5,253 nucleotides of DNA from Desulfocapsa sp. (GTDB taxonomy: Bacteria > Desulfobacterota > Desulfobulbia > Desulfobulbales > Desulfocapsaceae): contig JAOZLI010000187.1 of NCBI GenBank assembly GCA_029934915.1, positions 1-5,253 of the forward strand, given 5' to 3'. The first letter of the stretch is position 1. Each line of letters begins with the position of its first letter. This document shows, piece by piece, positions 1-5,253 of this stretch. The translations under genes were made by a program, and so were the position numbers. The notes beneath the pieces are model-generated. The model saw only the letters and a program-made list of their open reading frames with translations, searched no databases and was not told where the DNA came from.

Positions 1-863
1 TTGATGAAGCGTCCCAAATACTTCTTCCCCAGGCATTGTTGTCACTTATTCATGGGAGAGGGAACTATCTTTTGCTGGGCGATGTCCGCCAGCTGCCGCC
101 AATCATCCGTTCGCAAGCTGGTGATTTGGAGGCAGGAGAAGAATCTGTTCGTTTGTCTGTCTTGGAATTGTTGCTCAAACACTATCCACATCAGAATCAG
201 GTATTGGATACAACATACAGGATGAATGATACGATTTGTCGTTTCCCCAGCAAGACCTGGTATAAGAACCAACTGATCCCGGCCAGTGAAATTGCCGAAA
301 ACCGTTTGCAGTTAAGGCCTTCAACAGAAAATGATCTGATAGACGAAATAATTGATCCTCAAAAACCTGTGGTGCTGGTGGGAATAGATCATCACGATTG
401 GAGTGAGGCTACCGGATTGGAAGCAGATTTGCTGGCCGCGATCAGCCATCGTCTGCTGACCAGCTATGGAATAGACAATGATCAGGTGGCAATAATCTCA
501 CCTCATCGCGCTCAAAATAATAGTATCGCCGAAAGTCTCGCTGGTCTGCTAGGCCATGATGATCTACCGGTAATTGATACGGTGGAACGTATGCAGGGAG
601 CGGAAAGGGATGTGATTCTTTTTGGCTTTGCCTGCACCGAGTATGATCAGATGTTCTCGGAGTTTTTGAATAATCCTAACCGCTTTAATGTGGCCCTCAC
701 CAGAGCGAGGCGTAAAGTCATTGTGGTGGGCAACAAAATCTTCTTTGAATCTCTTGCCGCAACGGAAAAACAGCTTTCTGACAATGCTTGTTTTAAGGAG
801 TTTGTCGAGTATTGTCGGGAGAAAGAGTGTTATTTTGAGTTTGAAGAGAATACCGTAAAGTAA
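1..863 (+). CDS. SF1 helicase, Upf1/DNA2-like C-terminal part (5' end outside window)
   Basis: This is the C-terminal RecA-like half of a superfamily 1 nucleic-acid helicase, which would use ATP to translocate on or unwind DNA or RNA. The reading frame is open from base 3, where the first codons read DEASQ (motif II, Walker B, 3-17). It continues with GDVRQLPP (motif III, 78-101), TYRM (motif IV, 213-224), DTVERMQGAERDV (motif V, 576-614) and RFNVALTRARR (motif VI with the arginine finger, 681-713). About 50 residues follow motif VI before TAA at 861-863. Because motif II sits at the very edge, motif I and the whole N-terminal half lie upstream; the TTG at 36 is internal and should not be taken as a start. 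The TYRM, QGxE and NVALTRAR pattern is typical of the Upf1/DNA2/SMUBP2 type (AAA_12) rather than UvrD/Rep. Any N-terminal nuclease or accessory domain is not visible. No frame damage is seen in this part. Confidence 0.93.
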   Translation, partial: DEASQILLPQALLSLIHGRGNYLLLGDVRQLPPIIRSQAGDLEAGEESVRLSVLELLLKHYPHQNQVLDTTYRMNDTICRFPSKTWYKNQLIPASEIAENRLQLRPSTENDLIDEIIDPQKPVVLVGIDHHDWSEATGLEADLLAAISHRLLTSYGIDNDQVAIISPHRAQNNSIAESLAGLLGHDDLPVIDTVERMQGAERDVILFGFACTEYDQMFSEFLNNPNRFNVALTRARRKVIVVGNKIFFESLAATEKQLSDNACFKEFVEYCREKECYFEFEENTVK

Positions 864-880
864 AAGTGGATATCGCTTTT
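862..880 (+). terminator. Weak hairpin at the helicase stop codon
   Basis: AAAAGTG (862-868) can pair with CGCTTTT (874-880) around a 5-nt loop, giving a 7-bp stem with one G-U pair that overlaps the helicase stop codon. The T-run lies inside the stem rather than after it, so this is at best a weak terminator. A second small stem follows (883-888 with 892-897). It is reported because it is the only termination-like structure between the helicase and the next gene. Confidence 0.2.
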
Positions 881-906
881 CTGTGGAATCTTTTCACAAT
901 TCCCGG

Positions 907-1080
907 TCAAAAAGAACGAGGATCTTCCTGCGCAAACAGCCTTTTGTCGGGATCCTCCAGTGAGGCATAGGGCTTGTCTGCAAAGATCTTCTTTGCAAGA
1001 GTGGGCTTTCCCGACTGCCTGGGACCAGTAATAGTTACAATGGGTAGGTTGGCTTACAGCAAGATCCTTTGGCAGATTTT
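907..1080 (-). pseudogene. Remnant of an AAA_14/DUF4143-type P-loop ATPase (N-terminal fragment)
   Basis: Read on the minus strand, 1053 down to 910 encodes an uninterrupted 48-residue stretch containing LPIVTITGPRQSGKPTLAK, then KPYASLEDPD and FAQEDPRSF. This matches, from family knowledge, the start of the widespread ATPases with an AAA_14 domain followed by DUF4143, which usually open with a GPRQSGKTTL Walker A and then a SLExPDxRxFAxEDPRxFL segment. The gene is clearly dead. A TAA in frame at 1056-1054 lies just before the Walker A, and a TGA at 909-907 ends it where several hundred residues should follow. The Walker A threonine after GK is proline (codon 1005-1003). Upstream, KDLAV appears in another frame (1069-1055), which fits a frameshift, since these proteins commonly carry a helix of that kind before the P-loop strand. 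The rest of the gene is missing. The plus-strand open frame over 974-1204 is the antisense shadow of this remnant. Confidence 0.75.
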
Positions 1081-1154
1081 TTTAGTTTCCTTCCTGAGGA
1101 TAAGAGCATTGAAATGCGTTGCTAGAATTTTAGTAATCTGCTATTTTCAGGTAC

Positions 1155-1183
1155 TTACAAAAAATAATCATTCTGCATATTTT
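1155..1183 (+). promoter_or_regulatory. Possible sigma-70 promoter for the three-gene operon
   Basis: TTACAA (1155-1160) and TATTTT (1178-1183) are spaced by 17 nt and lie about 25 nt upstream of the ATG at 1209. The matches to TTGACA and TATAAT are only 3/6 and 4/6, and the region is AT-rich, so chance is likely. The position is plausible because the operon is preceded by a non-coding interval and no promoter is needed further downstream. Confidence 0.2.
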
Positions 1184-1208
1184 CCCCCCAAAGAAAGAGA
1201 GTAAAACC

Positions 1209-2045
1209 ATGGATAACGAAGCATATCTACAAGAAAAACAAGAACAGTTAAAAACAGTCCTCAGCCCGTATCAGAAAGAGCTGAACCGTGGTCAGAAGTT
1301 TGCCGATTTCTTGAAGCAATGTGTGAATTGTGCCAGCCGTGATGATTTTTTGCGGCTGGATGAATTGTTGAACAGTAAAATGGCAAAAACGCTTGTTGAA
1401 GAAGAGGCGCTAGCAGAATGCGAACCATTGCTGGATAGTCTACGGGAAGATGCCAGGGAAAAAGTTGAACGATACCGCCTGGAATTTGTGGAGGCCTTGG
1501 TTCGGCGGGGTGAAGAGGCGGGGCTTGATATTGAGATTGATTTTCCCCGTTTTTCTATACTCAAAGGAATTGATGGTGAGATAGCCTTTGCCGATCGCAG
1601 TACCACCATCAACAAGAAAGTCATGAAATCCATTGATCCTCGTCGAATTGTGGCGGCGCTTGGACGGCTGAAAAAACAACTCTATGACAAACCCTTTGAT
1701 CCACGGAAATATGTGGAAAGCCTGTTCGCAACCTATGCAAAGATGTGTAAAAACGATAATACCCCCATGGGGGCGGACATTCCCATTCTAGATTTTTATT
1801 TGGAATATGTTATCGCTTCGCAGAGCAAGGTGTTCTTTTCCAATATGGAGAAAGGTAAATTCCGTGGCTACAGCCTGGAACAGTTCAGTGTGGATGTGTG
1901 GCGTTGTTTTGAGTCGAATTGTACCGCAACGTCCAAAGGGATGAATTTTCGCTTGACTCCCGGACGCAACTATTCGCTCTGGCTGCTGGATAGTACCGGA
2001 GAAAAGAAACAGATAGGCTTCATTTCCTTTCAGGAGAGTGAGTAA
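1209..2045 (+). CDS. Uncharacterised 278-aa protein, first gene of the ATPase operon
   Basis: I do not recognise this protein and assign no function. It starts at ATG 1209 with GAGAG seven bases upstream and ends at TAA 2043-2045. Three zones can be seen. Residues 1-100 are strongly helical and charged, with coiled-coil-like stretches (about 3-30 and 60-100). Residues 105-140 look like beta strands (LDIEIDFPRFSILKG, then GEIAFADRSTTINKKV). Residues 141-278 are mixed: a compact segment SIDPRRIVAALGRLKKQLYD followed by KPFDPRKYVESL (141-171), a helical part, and a C-terminal hairpin-like end (250-274). No P-loop, metal-binding cluster, signal peptide or membrane segment is seen, so it is probably cytoplasmic. 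Only two bases separate it from the next gene, an ATPase, which suggests a structural or adaptor partner of the ATPases; that is inference from context alone. Confidence 0.9.
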   Translation: MDNEAYLQEKQEQLKTVLSPYQKELNRGQKFADFLKQCVNCASRDDFLRLDELLNSKMAKTLVEEEALAECEPLLDSLREDAREKVERYRLEFVEALVRRGEEAGLDIEIDFPRFSILKGIDGEIAFADRSTTINKKVMKSIDPRRIVAALGRLKKQLYDKPFDPRKYVESLFATYAKMCKNDNTPMGADIPILDFYLEYVIASQSKVFFSNMEKGKFRGYSLEQFSVDVWRCFESNCTATSKGMNFRLTPGRNYSLWLLDSTGEKKQIGFISFQESE

Positions 2046-2047
2046 TA

Positions 2048-3340
2048 ATGAATGGAGGAGAGATTGCAGACTTAGAACCTTTTCAGGCACGCTCCATTAT
2101 AGAAGAGATGCGTAAGGGCAGTGTTCCGGCCGAGTATGTTTCGTTCTTCACCGTGGGACGGGATAATTGGCTGACTTTTATTGAAGATGATCTGGTGAAC
2201 TATATTGCAGAAGGTGGTGCCAAGGTTCGTTTTCTGCACGGCAGCTATGGCGATGGCAAGACTCATTTTATGTCTGTAATACGTCATATCGCGCTGAAAC
2301 AGGGTTTTGCTGTCTCCTTTGTGGTACTTACTCGTGATGTACCTATTCATAAATTTGAAGCTGTTTACCAGGCAATTGTCCAGCAATTGAGTGGAAAATT
2401 TGAAGGAACCGGGATCCGCAGCCTCCTCAATCACTGGCTGGATAGTTTGGCGGTAAATGATACGTTTCCAGACGCAAAACAAATTACTGGCCTTGCCGAA
2501 AGCCTGCGTAATCTGCCTGGTATGAATGTAAATTTTGCCAATGCTCTTGTTGCTCTGGTGAAAAATCGTTTTCTGCCTCTTGAGGGTGAAGAGTTACAGG
2601 AAGAACGCATTGATGCCCGGGAAACGCTTTTCCGCTGGTTTGAAGCCGGTAAAATGACGAAAAAGGAGATAAAGCCCTTTTCCATTTTTGAAGTGGTTAG
2701 CAAAGCAAATAGCAAGCAGATGCTTAATTCTTTGAATAGCTTTCTGCGCTTTTACGGTCACAAGGGTATTATCCTATTACTGGATGAACTGGAAACAGTT
2801 ATTGTACAAGGTAAATCCATTCGTAACGCTGCCTACGAAAACGTACGGCTTCTTATAGATAACACCGAACAGGCCTCATGTTTTCACATCTTTTTTGCAA
2901 TTATCCCTGAGGTACTCTTAAATGAAAATGGTTTTAAATCATATGATGCTCTGTGGAGCAGAGTACGTTCAATTGGGCAGCAGGGTAAGCAATTAAATTA
3001 TCGCGGGGTGTTGGTCGATTTGCATCGTACTCCATTAAAAACAGAAGAATTGGTCAACCTGGGGCAATCCCTGCGGCAGATTCATCAGATTTCCTATCGT
3101 TGGGATGCCACCGAGTCGGTTCCCGATGGAATATTGGAGGAAATCTGTGCAAATCAAAAAAAGATGGGTTTACTCAGCGAAGTTAGATTGTATGTCAAGC
3201 AGGTGATCCTTTTGCTGGATATGGCTGAACAGGGCATAGACGTTGTAAATAAACTGGATCTTGACGAGCATATCGTCAACAGTCAGCAGGAAATGGAGCA
3301 GGAAAAGGTAGAAAAGTTACAGCCGAGCTGGGATAATTAG
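2048..3340 (+). CDS. P-loop ATPase, DUF2791/BrxD-like (first of a tandem pair)
   Basis: This is a 430-aa AAA+/STAND-like ATP-binding protein. A short N-terminal helical segment (residues 13-45, with EEMRKGSVPAEYVSFFTVGR) precedes the P-loop GSYGDGKTH (65-73), and the Walker B strand IILLLDE ends with D246-E247. A strand reading FFAIIPE follows at about residues 282-288 and may be the sensor-1 position. Near the C-terminus, SEVRLYVKQVILLLDMAEQG marks a helical domain. The N-terminal R-x-G pattern followed by GR, then KVRFLHGSYGDGKTH, is what I associate with the DUF2791 family, including BREX BrxD; the assignment is by recollection. Its length of about 430 aa fits that family. ATG 2048 lies two bases after the upstream stop, with AGGAG (2032-2036) inside the end of that gene, so translation is probably coupled. 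All core ATPase residues are present and it should be active. No membrane segment or signal peptide is seen. Confidence 0.92.
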   Translation: MNGGEIADLEPFQARSIIEEMRKGSVPAEYVSFFTVGRDNWLTFIEDDLVNYIAEGGAKVRFLHGSYGDGKTHFMSVIRHIALKQGFAVSFVVLTRDVPIHKFEAVYQAIVQQLSGKFEGTGIRSLLNHWLDSLAVNDTFPDAKQITGLAESLRNLPGMNVNFANALVALVKNRFLPLEGEELQEERIDARETLFRWFEAGKMTKKEIKPFSIFEVVSKANSKQMLNSLNSFLRFYGHKGIILLLDELETVIVQGKSIRNAAYENVRLLIDNTEQASCFHIFFAIIPEVLLNENGFKSYDALWSRVRSIGQQGKQLNYRGVLVDLHRTPLKTEELVNLGQSLRQIHQISYRWDATESVPDGILEEICANQKKMGLLSEVRLYVKQVILLLDMAEQGIDVVNKLDLDEHIVNSQQEMEQEKVEKLQPSWDN

Positions 3341-3344
3341 CGTT

Positions 3345-4559
3345 ATGGATATGGATGAATTTTCCAGTGTGTTGAATGGTTGTGATAACTTTTTGTTGCG
3401 AAGAGCTGTTGAACGGTTGCGGGAGGGGCTTTTTGACCCTTTTGCCGTGCAGTTGTTGACGGCCAGAGAATCACAGTTAAATAAGGTGTTTGATACTGGA
3501 GTAAAAACGCTTGCCCGCAATGAATCACCCCATCTTTGTGTTTGTGGATCCTATGGTCAGGGAAAATCCCATAGCTTGACCTACCTCCGCGAGCGTGCTC
3601 GTAAGCAGGGTTTTGTTAGCAGTTTTATCAACCTTGATCCAAGAGAAATTCCATTTCATGATTTTCGGCAGGTTTACCGGGCATTAGTGGAGAGTATTCG
3701 CTTTCCGGATAGTGATGATACCCTGGCGCAATATTGGAAAAAATGGAATAAAGAGCACACCGGAGCTGATTGTATTCCTGATTCCATGCCTCATTTTTTT
3801 AAATCTGTCTTAACGGCTCTTGCCAGTAAAAATCTGCGACTCAGTCAAAAACAAAAAACCTTGAAAAAGCATGCCACCTTCCGGCCCCGCGAGTTTCCCT
3901 GGATGTTGGCAAATGCCTTGAAGGGTGAAGTTTTACCGGTGTTTCGTTTACGTCACGCTCTAAAATATCGGGAGGTGCCGTTTTATAAAGACGCTTCCTT
4001 GGTGTGTAAAGGTTGGGAACCTTATTTTCAGGCTGTATGTAGTTTTGCGGAAATGTTCCGGAATATGGGTTTCAAGGGGTGGGTACTGTTCTTTGATGAA
4101 GGCGAGTCCATTGTTCAGCGGCCTGTTAATATTCGTCGGAAAAGTTATACTATTCTGGATCGGTTCTTTGCACCAGTATCTTCTCGGGCGGGTCTTTATC
4201 CGATATTTGCCTTTACTAATGATTTTTTTATGCAGGTACGTGGTGAAGATTATGACAGGGTCGTTATCAAAAATGAGCAGGAACAACCTTATTTTGAAAA
4301 GGATTATGGTGAGTCATGGAAGCAGTTAACCTGTCACAATCTGCATGATCTTGTAGCACAGGATTGGCAGAAGTTGAGTAAAAAACTGATCTGTCTTCAT
4401 GCAGGCGCCTATGCCTGGAAGCCTTCGGATCAAACCATTTCCGACATAACGACTGCTGCAGCAAAGGCAACGGTCGGGCAGGAAGCCAGGTTGAAAATAA
4501 AAGCTCTGGTTGAGCATTTGGATCTTATGCAGCAGGAAATCGTACTACGAGTTTCCTGA
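3345..4559 (+). CDS. P-loop ATPase, DUF2791/BrxD-like (second of a tandem pair)
   Basis: This is a 404-aa ATP-binding protein and a diverged paralogue of the preceding gene. Matching landmarks run in the same order. The N-terminal helix is VERLREGLFDP (22-32), the Walker A is GSYGQGKSH (68-76), and the segment after it has KQGFVSSFINLDPREIPFHDFRQVYRAL-type spacing as in the neighbour. The Walker B is WVLFFDE (246-252), a sensor-like strand IFAFTND follows, and the C-terminal helix EARLKIKALVEHLDL matches the neighbour's EVRLYVKQVILLLDM. A basic stretch at about 164-182 (SQKQKTLKKHATFRPRE) is specific to this copy. It begins four bases after the upstream stop. No good ribosome binding site precedes ATG 3345, so expression probably depends on translational coupling; ATG 3351 is an alternative start two codons on. 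Both catalytic motifs look intact. Overall identity to the neighbour is low, so this is an old duplication and hetero-oligomer formation is plausible, though not shown. Confidence 0.92.
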   Translation: MDMDEFSSVLNGCDNFLLRRAVERLREGLFDPFAVQLLTARESQLNKVFDTGVKTLARNESPHLCVCGSYGQGKSHSLTYLRERARKQGFVSSFINLDPREIPFHDFRQVYRALVESIRFPDSDDTLAQYWKKWNKEHTGADCIPDSMPHFFKSVLTALASKNLRLSQKQKTLKKHATFRPREFPWMLANALKGEVLPVFRLRHALKYREVPFYKDASLVCKGWEPYFQAVCSFAEMFRNMGFKGWVLFFDEGESIVQRPVNIRRKSYTILDRFFAPVSSRAGLYPIFAFTNDFFMQVRGEDYDRVVIKNEQEQPYFEKDYGESWKQLTCHNLHDLVAQDWQKLSKKLICLHAGAYAWKPSDQTISDITTAAAKATVGQEARLKIKALVEHLDLMQQEIVLRVS

Positions 4560-4598
4560 AAATATCATAATTGATGGCATTGTAAAAAGACCACACTC

Positions 4599-4681
4599 AC
4601 CATGAAGGGCATGAAGGGCATGAAGTTAAAAGACTGCTTAGCTGTTATTTTTTTCTTCATGCCCTTCATGTGCTTCATGGT
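4599..4681. repeat. Long inner hairpin, 27-nt arms
   Basis: The left arm (4599-4625) begins ACCATGAAGGGC and ends GGCATGAAG. The right arm (4655-4681) begins CTTCATGCCC and ends CTTCATGGT. They are complementary at 25 of 27 positions; the two mismatches are adjacent, at left positions 4608-4609. The loop is 29 nt (4626-4654) and carries a T-rich run. As RNA it would form a very stable stem just after the operon stop codon. No U-tract directly follows the stem (the TTTTT at 4690 is eight bases further on), so it is not a textbook intrinsic terminator, but it could protect the 3' end of the operon mRNA or reduce read-through. Confidence 0.85.
4602..4625 (+). repeat. 9-bp tandem repeat, ATGAAGGGC
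   Basis: Two complete units of ATGAAGGGC (4602-4610 and 4611-4619) and a third partial unit ATGAAG (4620-4625) stand head to tail and make up most of the left arm of the inner hairpin. The right arm keeps the same nine-base periodicity on the other strand but with one altered spacer (TGTGC in place of TGCCC), so the two arms have diverged slightly. Confidence 0.85.
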
Positions 4682-4686
4682 AGAAT
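4678..4686 (+). promoter_or_regulatory. Possible extended -10 promoter for the dynamin-like gene
   Basis: TGGTAGAAT (4678-4686) fits an extended -10 element: TGn followed by TAGAAT, 5/6 to TATAAT. No good -35 hexamer is found at the usual distance, which extended -10 promoters can do without. Transcription would begin near 4693, giving a leader of about 44 nt before ATG 4737. The site straddles the outer end of the hairpin's right arm, so the repeat element would supply the promoter. Confidence 0.3.
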
Positions 4687-4736
4687 AGGTTTTTACGACG
4701 CCATCATAATTAATACGTCATACAGAGAGTTCTCCC

Positions 4737-5253
4737 ATGTTTGAAACGAAACTACAGACCGAAATTCAGAACAAAGTAGGCAAAAAAATAGCACCGTTAT
4801 TTTCCAAATATGATATGGATTTCAGCAGTCTTGAATCCGCTATGAAATGGAAACCCATTGTGCTTATCATAGGCAATTATTCCTCTGGCAAATCCACCTT
4901 GATCAACGAAATTATAGGTGAGGATATCCAGCGTACCGGCCAGGCGCCCACCGATGATGCCTTTACCATTATCACTTCTGAGGGGCGCGATAAGCCTCCG
5001 GAAGTTCCCGGATCAACGCTTATTCATGACCAAAAACTACCCTTTGGTAAATTCAGGGAATTTGGAGAGAAACTGAGCTCCCACCTCTGCCTGAGAAATG
5101 TCGATTCACCTGACTTTGAGAACATGGCTATCATTGATAGCCCGGGAATGCTTGATGCTACATCGGAAAAAGATCGTGGTTATGACTACATGGAGGTGCT
5201 GGGTGAATTTGCCAAAATGGCCGATCTCATTGTCCTCATGTTTGATCCCCATA
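4737..5253 (+). CDS. EHD-like dynamin-superfamily GTPase (3' end outside window)
   Basis: The N-terminal 172 residues of a large GTPase are present; the frame is open to the right edge. A helical lead (1-38) precedes the G domain. G1 is IGNYSSGKST (45-54). A G2 threonine is likely in APTDDAFT (70-77). After EVPGST (89-94) and FGKFREFGEKL (103-113) comes G3, IIDSPGML (132-139), and then RGYDY (147-151) and ADLIVLMFDPH (162-172). The VPG segment, the DxPG followed by RGYDY/F, and ADLIxLxFDxH are hallmarks of the EHD branch of dynamins, known for ATP- or GTP-driven membrane tubulation in eukaryotes; bacterial members are little studied. G4 and the assembly and membrane-binding helices would lie beyond the window. 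ATG 4737 is supported by GAGAG at 4725-4729. The 177-bp gap and the repeat element separate it from the ATPase operon, so it is likely its own transcription unit. Confidence 0.88.
   Translation, partial: MFETKLQTEIQNKVGKKIAPLFSKYDMDFSSLESAMKWKPIVLIIGNYSSGKSTLINEIIGEDIQRTGQAPTDDAFTIITSEGRDKPPEVPGSTLIHDQKLPFGKFREFGEKLSSHLCLRNVDSPDFENMAIIDSPGMLDATSEKDRGYDYMEVLGEFAKMADLIVLMFDPH

Follow-up and report, generated by a model that had tools for sequence, protein, structure and literature searches.

Three genes packed tightly on one strand, the first coding for a protein that belongs to no named family and the other two for ATPases of the BrxD type, raise the question of which system they belong to and what that system does. 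They lie in a stretch of 5,253 nucleotides from Desulfocapsa sp. (the window), which is one entire contig (C204 of 606) of a genome that is 83% complete. The three open reading frames (ORFs) are on the + strand, start with ATG, encode 278, 430 and 404 amino acids (referred to here as X278, ATPase 1 and ATPase 2) and are separated by 2 and 4 nt, which bears out the compact trio described in the first-pass annotation of this DNA. Together they make up the X-ATPase-ATPase core of a cassette of four genes that recurs in other genomes, the fourth component being a giant helicase-nuclease (the effector). The cassette is best explained as modular and Shango-like, and we lean towards an anti-invader function, with the ATPase pair as the predicted loader of the helicase-nuclease on foreign DNA.

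Recurrence of the gene order

The main set of loci, found with an alignment of 30 X278 homologues, comprises 45 loci from named genomes, which by the titles of their records are mostly of the Desulfobacterota type, together with Latescibacterota (4), SAR324 (2), Chlamydiae (2), Gemmatimonadota (1), Tharpella (1) and a few unclassified genomes. ATPase 1 is placed within 400 nt of X278 in 43 of the 45, the exceptions being a locus that ends at X (L033) and another with the ATPase 483 nt away (L039; L, G and C denote loci, genomes and contigs). ATPase 2 follows ATPase 1 in 40 loci, and three of the remaining ones (L024, L033 and L042) are contig ends. The order of the trio therefore recurs in unrelated genomes of several phyla, a point that the first-pass annotation had proposed to check. 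Given this recurrence and the number of homologues at E ≤ 0.001 (297 for X278 and 447 for ATPase 2), the trio is not a chance assembly.

A helicase gene matching the superfamily 2 (SF2) or the superfamily 1 (SF1) half of the effector adjoins the trio in 31 of the 45 loci, 27 times downstream and four times upstream (L006–L009). The upstream position is that of the window and is confined to its close kin; the distance between helicase and X278 in L006 is 4 nt. The genomes of 11 of the 14 other loci were searched for an unlinked helicase (E ≤ 1e-50; L024, L033 and L042 were left out), and nine of them carry a giant helicase elsewhere, while the genomes of L046 and L048, searched alongside, contain the linked form. 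Of 395 genomes sampled from the phylum, eight have a strong X, eight the middle region of the effector and six both (Fisher p 1.5e-10, a value that ignores shared ancestry). The locus stops at the contig edge in the X-only genomes (the window's and G476); as for the effector-only ones, the contig of G346 begins inside ATPase 1 and the match in G371 is weak (54.7 bits) and lies in a frame of 1,290 aa. Among 96 near relatives, the window's genome counted, two have a strong X. The distances of the four cassette proteins parallel one another.

Components of the cassette and their distant relatives

Both ATPases exceed the gathering score of the PF10923 family BrxC_BrxD (22.2; Table 1) and both miss the cut-off of 350 of the NCBIfam BrxD equivalog NF033438 (135.6 bits for ATPase 1 and 65.4 bits for ATPase 2). 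The sequence of ATPase 1 has no match in the PDB. The two proteins align over 411 columns with 22.6% identity (E 1.8e-22) and are therefore old paralogues. Their Walker A and B motifs, read as intact in the window from the start, are well kept in those main loci whose ATPase pair is labelled: all 46 first and all 46 second ATPases retain Walker A, 37 of the 46 first ones DELE and 42 of the 46 second ones DEGE. A quick tree of 87 of the 146 labelled ATPases, with warned long-branch joins, splits those of the main loci into separate groups (first, 20 of 20; second, 20 of 20; Shimodaira-Hasegawa-like approximate likelihood ratio test, SH-aLRT, 100 each). A recent tandem duplication was rejected on the basis of the low identity and these separate groups. 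Thus, the description of the ATPases as diverged copies holds in that they are paralogues, but they represent two deep lineages. When all loci are included, the distant ones too, the labels first and second require six changes each, so that the tree does not establish a single origin of the pair. A strict P-loop pattern misses three ATPases, the two of L065 and the second one of L067; on inspection by eye, a GxGK[ST] core that lacks the leading Gly is present in the first ATPase of L065 and in the second one of L067.

Scans at E values up to 0.1 assign X278 to no family of Pfam or NCBIfam, and its one PADLOC match, ZorF, is weak (E 0.0069). Its AlphaFold2 model (mean predicted local distance difference test, pLDDT, 91.5) has no match at E ≤ 0.001 either in the PDB (Foldseek) or in a viral fold library, and its sequence has no useful match in the PDB. 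The C-terminal half (residues 163–278), which contains residues conserved across the distant X family, shows a weak fold likeness to winged-helix domains of origin recognition complex (ORC), Cdc6 and Cdt1 chains. X278 is predicted to carry a winged-helix-like domain at its C-terminus, and its binding partner would be either DNA or the ATPases. Kinship with TerB was considered and is not supported (hhalign probability 0.1% against four Shango TerB proteins, SngA), and no TerB appears among the 25 listed of 31 Pfam families in scans of 63 X278 homologues. An X profile reaches relatives at 16–20% identity to X278; at this level of sequence similarity X278 is not wholly isolated, since distant relatives lead other paired-ATPase loci. 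The protein called unrecognised at the first pass indeed matches no named system in PADLOC 2023, Pfam and NCBIfam, but it has a family.

The helicase fragment at the left edge of the window is an SF1 C-terminus (AAA_12, 126.5 bits). It starts at DEASQ, which we take to be motif II of SF1 helicases, and further contains GDxRQLPP, YRMN and NRFNVALTRAR. The fragment is 83% identical over 281 aa to the genes of L006 and L005 and 54% identical over 290 aa to the C-terminus of the 1,955-aa protein of L011, and its sequence matches in the PDB are UPF1, IGHMBP2 (SMUBP-2) and DNA2, that is, Upf1/Dna2-type SF1 helicases. Judged from these alignments, it is the C-terminal end of the fourth component, cut by the edge of the contig. 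The upstream SF1 helicase, which had been proposed as a possible effector, is accordingly a cassette member, but as the end of a giant SF2-nuclease-SF1 protein whose gene is mostly downstream in relatives.

The effector of the relatives (1,783–2,061 aa) begins with an SF2 helicase, to which a predicted nuclease, an RNase H-like domain in degenerate form and an SF1 helicase are fused. The SF2 half, seen in the relatives and lying outside the window, is BrxHI/SngC-like (PADLOC SngC 264, 247 and 251 bits in L011, L047 and L046, respectively). The nuclease has the four cysteines and the PD-(D/E)xK residues of the Cas4/Dna2 type; in the relatives the nuclease and iron-sulphur-type cysteine residues are conserved, with the first nuclease Asp kept in 34 of 38 effectors, and the region has no useful sequence match in the PDB. 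The RNase H-like (DEDD) domain shows D or E in at least 80% of 19 rows at only one position and is therefore a fold match without an active site. Matches to MkoA and DpdJ (Mokosh and Dpd) are confined to the helicase cores of the window's fragment and of the relatives' giants. The genome of L012 (G477) holds two copies of the giant helicase-nuclease, on contigs C1 and C2; provided that the C1 record holds L012, one copy is separated from the X-ATPase pair by about 50 kb.

PF10923 loci were collected at E ≤ 1e-3 from 35 of 61 genomes of the phylum (48 were over the PF10923 cut-off, 13 of which, with best single matches below about 30 bits, were left out). Paired ATPases are present in 24 of the 35 loci, X adjoins 18 of these 24 and eight of the 24 are like the window. 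Three others combine X and paired ATPases with a lone SF2 helicase of 674–714 aa (L065, L067 and L081) and three with an SNF2-Mrr nuclease (L069, L084 and L088), while L089 retains the start of an SNF2 gene and L085 and L087 have no clear effector. The first ATPase lacks a P-loop in five of the six loci of this last group with SNF2 or no effector (L069, L084, L087, L088 and L089), and for this reason may be a structural subunit there. The gene order in L069, L084 and L088 (X, a short P-loop-less ATPase, an ATPase, a 185–188-aa protein and the SNF2-Mrr nuclease) has the look of another undescribed system of the restriction type. Also among the 24 are L083, at a contig end, where X precedes a row of three PF10923 ATPases, L086, which is cut at ATPase 1 and carries an AAA_14/DUF4143 gene (2427–3638) between ATPase 2 and the helicase, and five loci without adjacent X (L076–L080). 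Outside the 24, L082 couples X to one ATPase protein of 722 aa and to an SF2 helicase. Nine of the 35 loci are Shango-like, with one ATPase gene (split in one case) and no X; the leading gene encodes TerB_N and TerB_C in all eight of them that were scanned, the ninth locus being cut. L090 is outside these classes.

Features of the window

Table 1. Position of the features in the window.
Feature	Position	Strand	Description
SF1 helicase gene, 3' part	1..863	+	286 codons, frame from base 3; gene continues off contig
Spacer, helicase to X278	864..1208		AAA_14-like scrap of at most 15 aa
X278, leading protein of the cassette, 278 aa	1209..2045	+	no named family; 297 homologues
X278 C-terminal half, residues 163–278	1695..2042	+	weak winged-helix likeness
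ATPase 1, BrxD-like, 430 aa	2048..3340	+	PF10923 186.4 bits
Walker A GSYGDGKT, ATPase 1	2240..2263	+	read from sequence
Walker B region DELE, ATPase 1	2783..2794	+	read from sequence
ATPase 2, divergent BrxD-like, 404 aa	3345..4559	+	PF10923 76.7 bits; 447 homologues
Walker A GSYGQGKS, ATPase 2	3546..3569	+	read from sequence
Walker B region DEGE, ATPase 2	4095..4106	+	read from sequence
Inverted repeat, long, near-perfect	4586-4690		CTTCATGCCCTTCATG arms; RNA fold -53.9 kcal/mol, z -8.8
Dynamin-like GTPase gene, start	4737-5253		Dynamin_N 54.6 bits; weak PADLOC mad8, LeoA

The spacer contains, on the - strand (997–1041), a 15-aa stretch resembling an AAA_14 P-loop (E 0.036); an AAA_14 remnant was rejected, as this short match is all there is. 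A 16-mer of the inverted repeat has 21 matches in the genome and its control none, and the element is therefore a dispersed repeat and not only a terminator. The dynamin-like GTPase has no relative among the ORFs of the loci compared.

Function of the cassette and competing explanations

No description of the cassette quartet was found among the titles and abstracts listed in searches of the open-licence PMC literature, nor does DUF2791 occur among the matches listed. By layout the nearest named system is Shango, not BREX (bacteriophage exclusion). Both Shango and the cassette are tight operons of a leading protein, a PF10923 ATPase and a BrxHI/SngC-type SF2 helicase. However, SngA, a TerB protein, leads in Shango and X278, without sequence kinship to it, leads here; Shango has one ATPase and the cassette two from separate lineages; and the cassette helicase is mostly fused to a Cas4/Dna2-like nuclease and an SF1 motor. 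The BrxD-BrxHI module of type 2 BREX likewise couples an ORC/Cdc6-type ATPase to a BrxHI-like SF2 helicase, but the cassette differs in its paired ATPases, in X278 and in ATPase scores under the BrxD equivalog cut-off. A 2026 survey classes BrxD with ORC/Cdc6 ATPases, gives it as the proposed loader of BrxHI and calls its role uncharacterised (PMC12839542). The effector also resembles COG2251/Dna2-like proteins, whose architecture, as reported in PMC3985635, includes a DUF83/Cas4-type nuclease, an RNase H-like domain and tandem AAA (here SF1) domains; unlike these, it is fused behind an SF2 helicase, is tied to X278 and the ATPase pair, and does not conserve the RNase H-like acids. The cassette is filed under neither Shango nor BREX because X278 shows no kinship with TerB, PglZ was not found in the window's 83% complete genome, and the ATPases fall outside the SngB clade and below the BrxD cut-off. 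The possible separate module of the first-pass annotation thus stands as a recurrent unit in unrelated genomes, though with Shango and not BREX as its neighbour in layout.

For the anti-invader system that we favour, ATPases 1 and 2 are predicted to form a mixed ORC/Cdc6-type ring on DNA. X278 would guide this ring, which would place the effector on DNA; the loaded SF2 motor would open the duplex, the Cas4/Dna2-type nuclease would then cut a strand and the SF1 motor would pull the strand through, leading to degradation of the invading DNA. In the distant relatives, the machine driven by the same X and ATPase pair would instead be a lone SF2 helicase or an SNF2-Mrr nuclease. Recognition of a DNA structure (ends, forks or gaps) seems likelier than that of a self mark, since no modification gene recurs in the cassette. 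The defence role is suggested by the patchy spread, by the exchange of effectors, including restriction-type Mrr, and by the kinship with Shango and BREX.

Several observations weigh against this proposal. The helicase is not seen linked in 14 of the 45 loci, four of which (L012, L016, L017 and L018) have about 10 kb of room downstream, and no giant helicase was found at E ≤ 1e-50 in two of the 11 genomes searched (L014 and L015). L030 and L039 are real exceptions, with a single ATPase beside X despite room for a second. A search of the window's own assembly (83% complete), made without positive control, recovered no further part of the effector. The reference effectors of L011 and L071 have Ser and Gly in place of the first nuclease Asp, and their nuclease may be impaired. 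The fold scores behind the winged-helix assignment of X278 are weak, and X278 was not found in the plasmid, phage and viral-contig collections searched. When 100 of 134 candidate neighbours were scanned with PADLOC (E ≤ 1e-20, no control set), 27 families were obtained, 25 of them listed, mostly with one member each (MTase_II, SspH, IetA, NsnA, SoFic and PDC-S01 among them; mad3 in three); few families were hit, and without a control they speak neither for nor against a defence-island setting. The ATPase pair stands without adjacent X or SF2 helicase in five genomes of two families (L076–L080), and X-like genes in two genomes (L066, 9652–10515; L068, 6911–7747) directly follow genes for metabolic enzymes of the OMPdecase/HUMPS and SIS families, which may form an HPS-PHI pair; both arrangements look like housekeeping. 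One of these two genomes, G253, also has an X-less paired-ATPase locus (L078).

The last two arrangements are in keeping with the main rival, DNA repair, whereby the Lhr/Dna2-like machine loaded by X278 and the ATPase pair would act at stalled forks or breaks in the DNA of the cell itself. Dna2-like nuclease-helicases act in DNA repair, and among NCBIfam families the SF2 half scores best against the ligase-associated DNA damage response helicase (196–213 bits in four proteins, below the cut-off of 850). We nevertheless regard genome maintenance as unlikely: X is too patchy for core repair (8/395 and 2/96, see above), distant relatives swap the effector for a restriction-type SNF2-Mrr nuclease, and the ATPase and helicase families are common to Shango and BREX. 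That the cassette is instead a Shango subtype, with the TerB protein replaced, the ATPase doubled and the Shango mechanism retained, would account for the shared logic of leading protein, PF10923 ATPase and SF2 helicase, for the SngB score of ATPase 1 (115.5 bits) and for the SngC score of the SF2 half of L011. This is improbable, given that all 13 Shango ATPases cluster together (SH-aLRT 100, in the quick tree with several long branches) apart from both cassette ATPases, that X278 shows no kinship with the Shango TerB proteins by hhalign, that every scanned leading gene of the one-ATPase loci is TerB_N plus TerB_C, and that X adjoins no such TerB-led locus.

A remnant of a broken type 2 BREX locus would agree with the PADLOC BrxD match of ATPase 1 (135.7 bits) and with the position of the single BrxD of the tree on the first-ATPase side (support 88, long branch). 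However, the type 2 BREX locus seen (L063) has one gene annotated brxD, and the cassette recurs as its own unit in 45 loci. Neither PglZ, a family that matched two of 14 control genomes, nor a further PF10923 gene was found in the window's genome (83% complete). The contig ends at both edges of the window, and pglX and brxC neighbours were judged from the relatives' loci, where BrxC, PglX and PglZ are not among the 25 listed of the 27 PADLOC families for 100 of the 134 neighbours. With the BrxD cut-off also missed, a BREX remnant was rejected as extremely improbable.

Within the favoured anti-invader function, a bolder proposal is put forward tentatively: the cassette could possibly represent a separate class of immunity, in which a two-subunit ORC/Cdc6-type loader and a winged-helix partner place exchangeable helicase-nucleases on invading DNA. 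This one loader would then take the SF2-Cas4-SF1 giants, the lone SF2 helicases and the SNF2-Mrr nucleases as plug-in effectors, Shango and BrxD-BrxHI would represent branches of the design with a single loader subunit, and the two-subunit loader would bear a loose parallel to ORC-Cdc6-Cdt1. If the anti-invader reading is true, the defence repertoire would be extended by a system that brings an unnamed protein family of its own. BrxD-type ATPases occur in both type 2 BREX and Shango, and their role would become testable here: two divergent ATPases with a conserved partner and exchangeable effectors allow the loader hypothesis to be tested away from methylation and PglZ.

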